Positions 7,812 to 27,394 of a stretch of 64,000 bases of DNA are shown here, in pieces (positions within the stretch are counted from its first letter, which is position 1; each line of letters begins with the position of its first letter). Source of the DNA: Actinobacteria bacterium HGW-Actinobacteria-2 (GTDB lineage: Bacteria; Actinomycetota; Actinomycetes; Propionibacteriales; Propionibacteriaceae); assembly GCA_002841335.1 (NCBI GenBank), contig PHEY01000002.1:310001-374000 (forward strand), given 5' to 3'. The translations under genes and the position numbers were made by a program. The notes under the pieces are model-generated. The model had not been told where the DNA came from. It saw only the letters and a program-made list of their open reading frames with translations, and did no database searches.

Positions 7812-8461
7812 TTCGCCGAGACCAGCATCACCAGACGCGCCGGCTCAGACCCGGTGAAGGTGGCCTTGGCCACATAGGTGCCGGCGGAGACAGTCGCCTT
7901 CGTGGTCTTGCAGCCGCCGGTCGAGCGCACTCCGGGCCACTTCAGTTCGAACACGTACGCCTGCTGCGCGGCCAGGGTCGTCGTCTTGGTCGGCACCCAG
8001 GCCGGGCAGTCCGCGGTGGACCAGATGCGGTCCTTGCCGCTGGTCACCGCCACCGCCACGTTGCTTGCCGCCACCGCCAGCACACAGGGCTCCGCAGCAG
8101 TGTTGGTGAGTGACACCTTGAACACCTGCGCACTTCCCTGGGCGAGCTTCTTGAACCCCGCCAATCCGGTGCGCACCGAGAGCGGGTCACAGGCCTGCGG
8201 TGGTGCCGGAGTCGCCGGTGCCGAGGACGCCGGTGGGCCGGTCACGATCGACGGGGTCGACACCGGGGTCGCCAACCCGCTGACCGCGCTACCGACCGGG
8301 CTCGGCGCCGGACTGGCCTGGGGTTCCGACTTCGGCCACCCCACCCACACCGCAGCGACCAATCCGATGAGCACCACGAGCACCGCGCCGAGCACTAATG
8401 CCCGTCGCCGCCAGTACACCTGTGGCTCCTGGGGACCCGTGGGATGCATGATCGAACCCAT
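7808..8461 (-). CDS. Membrane-anchored, proline-rich extracytoplasmic protein of unknown function
   Basis: A 217-residue protein. A short basic N-terminus precedes one transmembrane segment (about residues 21-43, ending VWVGW). A Ser/Pro/Ala-rich linker (about 45-88) follows, then a secreted domain of about 125 residues with four cysteines that could form two disulfides. The domain resembles the beta-sandwich DUF4232-type actinobacterial proteins, but only in general composition. The start could be ATG at 8461 or the ATG four codons in (MHPTG) at 8449. It is tail-to-tail with radA, sharing a four-base stop overlap. Confidence 0.6.
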   Translation of the reverse strand: MGSIMHPTGPQEPQVYWRRRALVLGAVLVVLIGLVAAVWVGWPKSEPQASPAPSPVGSAVSGLATPVSTPSIVTGPPASSAPATPAPPQACDPLSVRTGLAGFKKLAQGSAQVFKVSLTNTAAEPCVLAVAASNVAVAVTSGKDRIWSTADCPAWVPTKTTTLAAQQAYVFELKWPGVRSTGGCKTTKATVSAGTYVAKATFTGSEPARLVMLVSAN

Positions 8462-24884: not shown

Positions 24885-24915
24885 TGGACTTACCTACTTA
24901 TACCCCATAGGGTAT
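24885..24915 (+). promoter_or_regulatory. Promoter and CsoR/CstR-type operator of the SQR gene
   Basis: A perfect half-site palindrome ATACCC-N4-GGGTAT occupies 24900-24915. It overlaps a candidate promoter with -35 TGGACT (24885-24890), a 17-base spacer and -10 TAGGGT (24908-24913). The same ATACCC-N4-GGGTAT sequence occurs at the thioredoxin-repressor promoter (27368-27383). Overlap with the -10 element predicts repression. Confidence 0.75.
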
Positions 24916-24952
24916 GGCCGCTGGCCGCCTCGCCAGCTGGAAGGAGCTCGCG

Positions 24953-26410
24953 ATGGCTGACGTGGTCATCCTCGGGGCCGGCATCGCCGGACATACCGCG
25001 GCACTACATCTACGGCGAATGCTCGGCCGCACCCACACGGTAACGGTCGTCTCGCCGAACGCAAACTGGAACTGGATCCCTTCGAACATCTGGGTAGGTG
25101 TCGGACGGATGGCCAAAGAACAGGTCGTCTTCCCCCTCGCCCCGATCTACCGACGCAAGGGCATTCAGCACCGCCAAGCCAAGGCGGTCGCGATCTACCC
25201 CGAAGGTGATGCCGACGACAGCCGTGGCGCGGTGGAAATCGAGTACACCGGCCAGAACAAGGCCGGACAGGTCGAGAAGATCCGCTACGACTATCTGGTC
25301 AACGCGACCGGCCCGAAGCTGAAGTTCGAAGCCACCGAGGGCCTCGGCCCCGACGCCGGCAACACCGTCTCGGTCTGCACCGCTGATCACGCCCGCGAGG
25401 CGTCACAGAAGCTGGCCGCCACGATCGCCAAGATGAAGGACGGCCAGCCGCAGACGCTGGTGGTCGGCACCGGTCACGGCACCTGCACCTGCGAGGGCGC
25501 GGCCTTCGAGTACACCTTCAACGTCGACCACGAACTGCGCGCCGCCGGCGTCCGGGACAAGGCCACGCTGTACTACCTCACCAACGAGGCCGCCCTGGGC
25601 GACTTCGGAGTGGGCGGCATGACCTTCAACCAGAACGGCTTCGAGACCAGCAGCGAGTTGTGGACCAGTTCGCTGTTCCGCGAGCGCGAGGTCAAGCCGA
25701 TCCTGGGCACCCACCCGCACAAGATCACCTCCGAGGTGATCACCTACGAGACCCTCGACGGCGAAATGCACGACCTGCCGTACGACTTCGCGATGCTGCT
25801 GCCGCCGTTCAGTGGTCACCCGATCAAGGCGTTCAACGCGGCCGGCGAAGACATCACCGACAAGGTGTTCGCACCCAGCGGCTTCATGAAGGTGGACGCG
25901 GACTACACCCCCAAGCCGTACGAGGAGTGGAGCGCCAAAGACTGGCCGCAGACCTACCAGTCGGTGGGCTACGACAACGTCTGGGCGGTCGGGATCGCGT
26001 TCGCGCCGCCGCACCAGATCTCCAAGCCGCGCAAGACCCCCAACGGCACCGTCATCGCCCCGGCCCCGCCGCGCACCGGCATGCCGTCCGGCATCATGGC
26101 CAAGGTCGTGGCCGGCACCATCGCCGACCGGATCAAGGTGGGTCCGAAGGCACATGCGCATCACGCGTCGATGACCGAGATGACCGCAGTGTGTGTCGCC
26201 TCGGCCGGCAACGGGCTGTTCGACGGTTCAGCCGCGGCCATGGTGATGAGCCCGGTGGTCCCGGACTACAACCGGTACCCGCTGGGTCGCGACATGAAGG
26301 AAACTCGTGGCGAGATCGGCCTGTTCGGTCACTGGACGAAGTACATCCTGCATTTCCTGTTCATCTACAAGGCCAAGGCCCTGCCGGGCTGGTCGCTGAT
26401 TCCGGAGTGA
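24953..26410 (+). CDS. Sulfide:quinone oxidoreductase-like flavoprotein
   Basis: FAD-dependent oxidoreductase of 485 residues that should oxidise sulfide to polysulfide or persulfide and pass electrons to quinone at the inner membrane face. The N-terminal FAD motif VILGAGIAGHTAA, the NATGPKL second motif, and redox-type cysteines (GTCTCEGAAFEY and TEMTAVCVA) are visible. The C-terminus has an amphipathic/hydrophobic stretch (HWTKYILHFLFIYKAKALPGW) for membrane attachment. ATG at 24953 has AAGGAG six bases upstream. The operator match and the adjacent CstR-like repressor support a sulfide role over NADH dehydrogenase. Cys positions should be checked against SQR types before assigning a subtype. 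Confidence 0.8.
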   Translation: MADVVILGAGIAGHTAALHLRRMLGRTHTVTVVSPNANWNWIPSNIWVGVGRMAKEQVVFPLAPIYRRKGIQHRQAKAVAIYPEGDADDSRGAVEIEYTGQNKAGQVEKIRYDYLVNATGPKLKFEATEGLGPDAGNTVSVCTADHAREASQKLAATIAKMKDGQPQTLVVGTGHGTCTCEGAAFEYTFNVDHELRAAGVRDKATLYYLTNEAALGDFGVGGMTFNQNGFETSSELWTSSLFREREVKPILGTHPHKITSEVITYETLDGEMHDLPYDFAMLLPPFSGHPIKAFNAAGEDITDKVFAPSGFMKVDADYTPKPYEEWSAKDWPQTYQSVGYDNVWAVGIAFAPPHQISKPRKTPNGTVIAPAPPRTGMPSGIMAKVVAGTIADRIKVGPKAHAHHASMTEMTAVCVASAGNGLFDGSAAAMVMSPVVPDYNRYPLGRDMKETRGEIGLFGHWTKYILHFLFIYKAKALPGWSLIPE

Positions 26411-26416
26411 TCGAAC

Positions 26417-26590
26417 ATGACTGAGCAAAACGTTCCCGCGGCTGCTGCGCAGCCCGTCTTCGACCTGAGCGGGGCTCCGATGCCCAACGTGCGGACCCTC
26501 CAGGCCCGCTACAACCCGTTCAGCCAGTTCTTCAAGCTGGTCGGCTTCATGCTCAACATCATGAAGCTGGTCATCCGAAGCGGTCACTGA
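26417..26590 (+). CDS. 57-residue protein downstream of SQR, unknown function
   Basis: A small protein starting MTEQNVPAAAAQ. The first 30 residues are polar and Pro/Ala-rich. The last 25 form a hydrophobic/amphipathic helix (FSQFFKLVGFMLNIMKLVIR) ending SGH. It begins only six bases after the SQR stop and ends right at a stem-loop terminator, so it is in the same transcript. The C-terminal helix resembles in character the membrane-binding end of the SQR itself. No family name is known to me; a membrane partner or anchor of SQR is a reasonable hypothesis. The ribosome site is weak, so coupling to SQR translation is likely. Confidence 0.7.
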   Translation: MTEQNVPAAAAQPVFDLSGAPMPNVRTLQARYNPFSQFFKLVGFMLNIMKLVIRSGH

Positions 26591-26598
26591 CCTCACCA

Positions 26599-26635
26599 AA
26601 ATGGGGCTCCCCGGTACACCCGGGGAGCCCCATTT
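26599..26635. terminator. Bidirectional terminator between SQR and repressor operons
   Basis: 16-bp perfect stem (AAATGGGGCTCCCCGG) with a five-base loop, eight bases after the small-protein stop and 12 bases before the minus-strand repressor stop. A-rich and T-rich flanks suit both directions. Confidence 0.88.
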
Positions 26636-26647
26636 GTCGTCTAGGGA

Positions 26648-26911
26648 TCAGGCCAGCGAAAGGAAGAGCTTCTCCAGCGTGGCGGTGTCGACCTCAGTGT
26701 CGCCGGTATCGTCCAACAAGCACTGCTTCAGACTGCCCGCGATCACCGCGAAGCCGGCCCGATCAAGGGCCTTGGACACCGCGGCCATCTGGGTGACGAC
26801 GTCGGTGCACTCGCGGCCTTCCTCGATCATGCGGATGATGCCACCAATCTGGCCCTGGGCACGCTTGAGCCGCTTCAGCACCGGCACCATGGCATCGGGG
26901 TCGAGTTGCAT
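26648..26911 (-). CDS. CsoR/CstR family repressor, probably persulfide-sensing
   Basis: An 87-residue DUF156 protein. The family helix MVPVLKRLKRAQGQIGGIIRMI is followed by Cys35 (GRECTDVV) and Cys64 (LKQCLLDD). In copper-sensing CsoR a histidine lies four residues before the second cysteine; here it is Ser60. That two-cysteine, no-histidine pattern fits CstR-like persulfide sensors. I chose ATG at 26911 (AGGGG upstream, family-typical MQLDPD start); an ATG at 26980 overlaps the thioredoxin stop (ATGA) and would give 110 residues. It should bind the two ATACCC-N4-GGGTAT sites and control both the SQR unit and its own operon. Confidence 0.82.
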   Translation of the reverse strand: MQLDPDAMVPVLKRLKRAQGQIGGIIRMIEEGRECTDVVTQMAAVSKALDRAGFAVIAGSLKQCLLDDTGDTEVDTATLEKLFLSLA

Positions 26912-26976
26912 GAATGCACCCCTTTCAGCTTCATAACTGAAGCCGATCCTACCGGTGTCGATGCCGTCGTCGCTGG

Positions 26977-27354
26977 TCATGATGAGGACTCGGCCTTCTC
27001 TTGCTCAGCGATCTCGGCGCGGATCTCGTCCATGTCGGCGGCGCGGACGGCGCCGATGAGCTCGTCCAAGGCCGAAGCAGGCAAAGCGCCCGGCTGAGCG
27101 AAGACCAGAATGCCCTCACGGAAGATCATCAGGGTGGGGATGGACATGATGCGCGCGGCCGAAGCCAGCTCACGCTCCGCCTCGGTGTCGACCTTGCCGA
27201 AGACCAGATCGGCGTGCTTCTCGGACGCTGCCTCATAGACCGGCGCGAACCCGACGCACGGACCGCACCAGTCGGCCCAGAAGTCGACCAGCACGATGTC
27301 GTTGTCTGCGATCGTCTTCTCGAAATCAGCGGCGGTCAGATTTGTGGTGGCCAT
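26977..27354 (-). CDS. Thioredoxin
   Basis: A 125-residue thioredoxin with the active site WCGPC at Cys30-Cys33, cis-proline segment SIPTLMIF and a C-terminal acidic helical extension. ATG at 27354 has AAAGGAG six bases upstream. It is the first gene of an operon with the CstR-like repressor and carries the operator in its promoter, so it probably reduces persulfides or protein disulfides formed during sulfide oxidation rather than serving as the main housekeeping thioredoxin. Confidence 0.9.
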   Translation of the reverse strand: MATTNLTAADFEKTIADNDIVLVDFWADWCGPCVGFAPVYEAASEKHADLVFGKVDTEAERELASAARIMSIPTLMIFREGILVFAQPGALPASALDELIGAVRAADMDEIRAEIAEQEKAESSS

Positions 27355-27364
27355 GCTTCTCCTT

Positions 27365-27394
27365 TCAATACCCCCCAGGGTATCACCTGGACAA
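27365..27394 (-). promoter_or_regulatory. Promoter and operator of the thioredoxin-repressor operon
   Basis: On the minus strand, -35 TTGTCC (27394-27389) and -10 TATTGA (27370-27365) are 18 bases apart. The palindrome ATACCC-N4-GGGTAT (27368-27383) lies in the spacer and touches the -10. It matches the SQR operator in both half-sites. The first base of the operator end overlaps the histidine kinase stop codon. Confidence 0.75.

Follow-up and report, generated by a model that had tools for sequence, protein, structure and literature searches.

Many of the genomes examined here contain both persulfide and copper sensors of the CsoR family, and the two kinds of sensor use cysteines alike, so that how the two regulons stay apart is a real question. 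It is raised by a locus of Actinobacteria bacterium HGW-Actinobacteria-2 (genome of 2.92 Mb in 14 contigs, 98.6% complete), which lies in the window analysed, a stretch of 64,000 nucleotides (67.7% G+C) at positions 310,001 to 374,000 of contig PHEY01000002.1. Here the operon of a putative sulfide-quinone reductase (SQR) converges with one encoding a thioredoxin and a CsoR-family repressor, and each is preceded by the operator ATACCC-N4-GGGTAT (N4, spacer of four bases; N5, of five). Very probably, this repressor is a CstR-type persulfide sensor that represses six operons through this operator, with release by persulfide, onward transfer of the sulfur and insulation from a copper paralogue through the N4/N5 difference.

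The repressor and its six operators

The two operators that the original prediction had placed in the window are both exact and lie where it put them (Table 1). The genome-wide search that it proposed returns six exact sites, against none for the same pattern read backwards, and all six are located 10-69 bp upstream of sulfur or redox genes or of genes for unnamed cysteine-rich proteins. Only two of these operators fall inside the window, so that the "complete regulon" claimed for it must be given up; the "closed module" of four genes was apparently right as to the CstR-like kind of control but too small, being part of a six-operon set. Control of sulfide and persulfide enzymes, by which a CstR is recognised, is predicted from site position (6/6 exact sites).

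The repressor belongs to the CsoR/DUF156 family. Its two conserved cysteines are C58 and C87 in the 110-aa reading, and become C35 and C64, as originally numbered, if translation starts at Met24 (Met at 26911) to give 87 aa. The position four residues ahead of the second cysteine, occupied by His in copper-type members, is Ser83, which bears out the reported Ser substitution, and Glu replaces the Tyr that precedes the first cysteine in all 134 His-type members examined. Both the Cys-His-Cys (C-H-C) copper site and the copper efflux neighbourhood of a copper CsoR are absent. They are found instead at the genome's only other CsoR-family gene detected (contig 12), which encodes a C-H-C protein beside the gene of a heavy-metal, copper-type P-type ATPase with an HMA domain; in the promoter of the C-H-C gene the half-sites are unchanged but the spacer is N5 (ATACCC-CCCAA-GGGTAT).

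Database labels favour another view, in which the sulfur genes are mere neighbours of a repressor that is either a copper CsoR whose His has been lost or one that senses formaldehyde or some other metal: the nearest solved sequence, 7mq1, is labelled a copper-sensing CsoR, and the best NCBIfam match is copper RicR (46 bits, cut-off 175). We take entries 7mq1-3, however, to be a streptococcal persulfide sensor. With His and Tyr both replaced, a separate C-H-C paralogue adjoining the P-type ATPase gene and all six exact sites ahead of sulfur, redox or unnamed cysteine-rich genes, this view is very improbable, and a copper-only explanation is rejected on the repressor's residues and targets. The same residues, targets and paralogue sustain the original choice of a persulfide over a copper class, the effector itself being predicted from sequence. 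Putative CstR-like control of sulfur genes by the window repressor is well supported on genomic grounds, because all six exact sites precede such genes or unnamed cysteine-rich ones and the repressor lacks the copper His and Tyr.

Operator spacing and repressor class

Repressor class and target genes both correlate with spacer length. Across the 97 family genomes, exact sites number 203 for N4 (control 1) and 133 for N5 (control 2). N4 sites occur in 58/65 genomes with a CstR-like protein (called at E<1e-14) vs 2/32 without (Fisher 4e-16), and N5 sites in 59/80 genomes with a copper-type CsoR vs 1/17 without (Fisher 2e-7), both P values being too small since related genomes are not independent.

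For individual repressors, class (His or non-His) was read from the position four residues ahead of the second cysteine, and spacers of 0-14 were scanned alike over 350 bp upstream, with TAC/GTA and 10/12 half-site letters required. The 97 family genomes, 119 phylum genomes, contigs of named genomes (78 loci) and 61 genomes of the Viridibacillus order (Bacillota) were sampled, using the best 30 or fewer matches per search together with 60 fetched loci, and yielded 276 distinct CsoR-family members. The 134 His types have N5 in 84 cases, N4 in 1, another spacer only in 1 and no site in 48, whereas the 142 non-His types have N4 in 99, N5 in 3, another spacer only in 1 and no site in 40. The split is already seen in the first set of 190 proteins (78 His: N5 44, N4 1, no site of any spacer 32; 112 non-His: N4 76, N5 2, no site 34), in which every other spacer gives 0-3 matches. 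It recurs in the Bacillota order, where 51 His members have N5 in 39, N4 in 0 and no site in 12, and 27 non-His members, all with Asn, have N4 in 23, N5 in 0 and no site in 4; six of these His members have an extra spacer-10 match, each beside an N5 site. The mixed-genome set is small (5 His: N5 1, no site 4; 3 non-His: N5 1, no site 2). The tested range of the rule is Actinobacteria and one Bacillota order, clostridial and other non-Actinobacteria His members of the first set being almost all without a site.

After clustering at 70% identity, N4 is carried by 29 non-His clusters and 0 His clusters, N5 by 17 His clusters and 1 non-His cluster, and 3 clusters hold both spacers. The rule has four exceptions: L136 (His, N4), L024 (non-His, N5), L160 (non-His, both) and L332 (Tyr for His, N5). 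The clearest are L024, from a genome without an exact N4 site (G056), and L136 (genome G058). The two classes differ at many alignment columns besides His; the residue before the first cysteine, for example, is Tyr in 134/134 His types vs Asp or Glu in 129/140 non-His types with both cysteines.

A phylogeny of the 276 proteins, built from a short alignment and with weak support on the largest non-His group, has about four changes of class (Fitch 4) and about three of spacer (Fitch 3). Because the changes are so few, the correlation is best read as the deep conservation of a few events and not as many convergences. The small number of independent events also favours a reading in which either paralogue can bind operators of both types, the N4/N5 split being a relic of descent with no role in specificity, as does a passage of Lu et al. 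(PMC7533328) in which copper CsoR and RicR sites are placed with persulfide promoter fragments in one motif search and the ScCsoR operator is called "highly similar" to them. We regard this as a possibility of some weight, if clearly the less likely one. Members of two phyla show the split and four of the 276 break it, whereas the bases within the spacer differ from site to site; genomes without a CstR-like protein hold 2 N4 vs 38 N5 sites in total, and where a copper-type CsoR is missing (17 genomes) there is 1 N5 site in total. To say that the protein reads the spacer itself would go a step further than the correlation proves. The operator spacer rule is apparently general over the range sampled.

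Genes behind the two operator types

Target genes were counted by tblastn (E 1e-4, gene start <=1200 bp from the site, several targets per site possible), because the gene finder missed small genes, even one of 163 aa. The set comprises loci fetched by pattern and the genome's own sites outside the window (80 N4, 31 N5), the N4 sites leaning on eight chosen genomes, of which four belong to the genus and the other four were site-rich. A larger count (151 N4 and 57 N5 sites) was set aside, since the presence of CsoR-family genes was the reason why many of its loci had been retrieved. Behind the 80 N4 sites lie a CoA-disulfide reductase (CoADR, 23), a 52-aa CxxC protein (22, the second most frequent target), CstR (10), thioredoxin (9), a rhodanese lipoprotein (7), SQR (6), a protein with GCPVCNK (6), CcdA (2) and TlpA-rhodanese (2), with none at 19; behind the 31 N5 sites lie CopA (15), CsoR (9) and rhodanese (1), with none at 15. 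Six of the 19 target-less N4 sites (18 inspected with Pfam) precede other likely sulfur genes, namely three metallo-beta-lactamase-rhodanese fusions, a PALP enzyme like cysteine synthase, a glutaredoxin and a Pyr_redox_2 flavoprotein with a weak sulfide-dehydrogenase match. Ten of the 15 target-less N5 sites precede, by Pfam, genes for a P-type ATPase, a cation efflux protein, three DUF4396 proteins, amylase, lipase, SLAC1 and PPK2, one having no match.

The DUF4396 proteins stand directly behind N5 sites in three genomes (L246, L247, L258), a position that suggests a copper role. A protein of about 406 aa with no Pfam match lies behind N4 sites at L234:1553-2773 and L268:241-1458, with two tandem sites in L268.

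Two of the source genome's six genus relatives in the 97-genome draw have no exact N4 site; in the other four, 16/17 exact N4 sites precede the same gene families as in the source genome, and the 17th (G008, L316/L270) is near an ArsR-type gene.

Several points weigh against a six-operon persulfide regulon set apart by its spacer. The basis is genome sequence, from which repressor binding, effector and expression are predicted. An exact N4 site is absent from 7/65 family genomes with a CstR-like protein, and for 40/142 non-His members the 350 bp upstream contain no recognised site, in some cases owing to a second place in the operon, like that of the window repressor gene. Among the 80 N4 sites, 19 have no homologue of a listed gene nearby; several stand ahead of genes without an obvious link to sulfur (prephenate dehydratase, NuoC, AHSA1, CAP-domain, ABC transporter), and the rest of the target-less sites also include ArsR and unnamed proteins.

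With <=2 mismatches allowed, the window gives 3 matches vs 0.50 expected (3 reached in 1/100 shuffles), but the genome gives 22 N4-like sites vs 15 for the control; weak sites were not counted, because this genome count is not above chance. Two one-mismatch sites, C6:27428 and C8:184593, were dropped for want of a convincing target gene. Another, ATACCGGTGGGGGTAT (C9:91250; L014:6251-6266), is possibly a weak site, with paired genes for thioredoxin reductase and thioredoxin about 90 bp downstream; it too is left out of the counts.

It seems somewhat more probable than not that the one-bp spacing is a physical code by which copper and persulfide signalling are kept separate in the CsoR family. 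In two phyla or more, ATACCC-N5-GGGTAT would be the sequence recognised by His-class repressors and ATACCC-N4-GGGTAT that recognised by non-His ones. Spacer length alone would then tell what an operator senses, and would assign proteins such as the 57-aa protein of the SQR operon, the 52-aa CxxC protein, the GCPVCNK protein and DUF4396 to sulfur or to copper.

The locus, its mechanism and known systems

Table 1. Operators and genes of the window locus, and the operons behind the six exact N4 sites of the genome.
Feature	Location	Strand	Basis or remark
N4 operator ATACCC-CATA-GGGTAT ATACCCCATAGGGTAT, SQR promoter	24900..24915	.	exact match; one of the genome's six exact sites
SQR, 485 aa	24953..26410	+	phmmer to 3hyv; Pfam Pyr_redox_2; aligned cysteines
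57-aa small protein directly 3' of SQR	26417..26590	+	no Pfam/NCBIfam match
G+C-rich inverted repeat between converging operons, possible transcription end	26603..26632	.	spotted by eye
CsoR-family (CstR-type) repressor, 110 aa or 87 aa	26648..26980	-	PF02583 81.8 bits (cut-off 22.8)
Thioredoxin, 125 aa, WCGPC	26977..27354	-	PF00085 86.5 bits; TIGR01068 97.1 bits (cut-off 96.8)
N4 operator ATACCC-CCCA-GGGTAT ATACCCCCCAGGGTAT, trx-repressor promoter	27368..27383	.	exact match
Operon 1: SQR + 57-aa protein	window
Operon 2: thioredoxin + repressor	window
Operon 3: 163-aa membrane protein with GCPVCNK	L007:8043-8531		no Pfam/NCBIfam match
Operon 4: CcdA + TlpA-rhodanese	L008; N4 site 8026-8041
Operon 5: CoA-disulfide reductase with rhodanese domain	L009
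Operon 6: 52-aa CxxC protein + rhodanese lipoprotein	L010; 52-aa gene 7939-8094

The SQR and thioredoxin starts lie 38 and 14 bp past their respective N4 sites, and the trx stop overlaps the ATG of the repressor reading frame (110-aa reading). The position of the sites over the core promoter, as originally described, is plausible: the 3' half GGGTAT merges by eye into TATxxT in 3/6 N4 promoters, although a sigma-70 scan found nothing. The inverted repeat at which the two operons converge is absent from the terminator scan, which gave nothing.

The putative SQR is similar to the solved enzyme 3hyv (phmmer E 7.8e-36), and its C142, C180 and C414 align with cysteines of that protein, presumably the redox cysteines of SQR. 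Both observations speak against its being a different flavoprotein with no sulfide oxidation involved; such a case, for which an NCBIfam SQR_III match far below cut-off can be cited (52 vs 525 bits), is the least credible of the alternatives weighed here. In 19/22 examined SQR-bearing loci, which partly overlap and so represent fewer genomes, the 57-aa protein has a homologue whose start lies between -6 and 13 nt relative to the SQR stop codon (L230, L275 and L284 have none). It matches no Pfam or NCBIfam family at E 0.001; with 14 invariant columns in a nine-sequence alignment and the consensus ...DLSKAPMPNVKTL...RFVxFNLRIMRMVIKGGH, it is by sequence a conserved family, perhaps a partner of SQR at the membrane or the quinone site. 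The 52-aa cysteine-rich protein follows the pattern MC..V.C..CGKTTWAGCGQH...VP..QWC.GH, again with no Pfam or NCBIfam match. The ccdA site also lies ahead of a two-component system transcribed divergently, with a multicopper oxidase gene next in line, a possible sulfur-copper link.

In the proposed mechanism, SQR or another source would raise cellular persulfide or polysulfide, which would modify the repressor's cysteine pair so that the repressor leaves the DNA. SQR, thioredoxin, CoA-disulfide reductase-rhodanese, CcdA/TlpA-rhodanese, the rhodanese lipoprotein, three unnamed proteins and the repressor itself would then be expressed. The rhodaneses would hand persulfide on, and CoA-disulfide reductase and thioredoxin-type proteins would reduce it until repression returns; one bp of spacer would prevent crosstalk with the copper paralogue despite identical half-sites. 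What we infer is the effector, the release of the repressor, which way sulfur flows and what thioredoxin does; release by persulfide is the mechanism published for CstR and ScCsoR and would apply here by analogy. A type III persulfide dioxygenase query has no match in the genome at E 1e-5 (other dioxygenase types were not sought), so that the cell may get rid of sulfane sulfur by transferring and reducing it instead of oxidising it.

Judged by the known architecture of CstB, no CstB-type gene lies behind the six sites, which sets the regulon apart from the cst system of Staphylococcus aureus. Passages on that system describe CstR as a persulfide sensor with SQR among its targets, as here, and with a separate copper paralogue, CsoR, that has its own signal and is unresponsive to sulfide; cst is likely a single operon there vs six here (PMC5480029). 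Closer in operator is Streptomyces coelicolor ScCsoR, described as a sulfane-sulfur sensor with Cys37/Cys66, which represses its own and sulfur genes, is released by sulfane sulfur and binds the 16-bp operator ATACCn6GGTAT (PMC7533328), the N4 site in other notation. Its reported targets are a persulfide dioxygenase, a rhodanese and a sulfite transporter (PMC7533328), in contrast to the SQR, thioredoxin, CoA-disulfide reductase, CcdA/TlpA and others in six operons seen here. In Enterococcus faecalis, CstR controls a CoA-persulfide reductase (CoAPR) with a C-terminal rhodanese domain, and the available passages mention no SQR (PMC9405070), whereas here SQR and CoA-disulfide reductase-rhodanese both stand behind N4 sites. 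B. licheniformis YrkD is likewise described as a CstR-like sulfane-sulfur sensor (PMC9918477), and T. thermophilus TTHA1953 is described as controlling Sox genes through a different site (PMC10318464).

The copper counterpart is Streptomyces lividans CsoR, for which an N5 spacer, TAC-X9-GTA and copZA targets are reported (PMC3902906); it has the half-sites ATACCC/GGGTAT in common with the N4 operator and matches the genome's C-H-C paralogue, not the window repressor. ScCsoR (PMC7533328) set beside S. lividans CsoR (PMC3902906) already yields the one-base difference. The titles, abstract openings and passages searched contain no text stating a one-base spacer rule, and earlier publication elsewhere is possible.

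The window locus is thus a further member of the known CstR kind, with unnamed small proteins. If the one-base spacer rule is true, the sensing class of a CsoR-family operator would be readable from DNA, and three unnamed protein families would come under persulfide control; the rule is directly testable with a few oligonucleotides.

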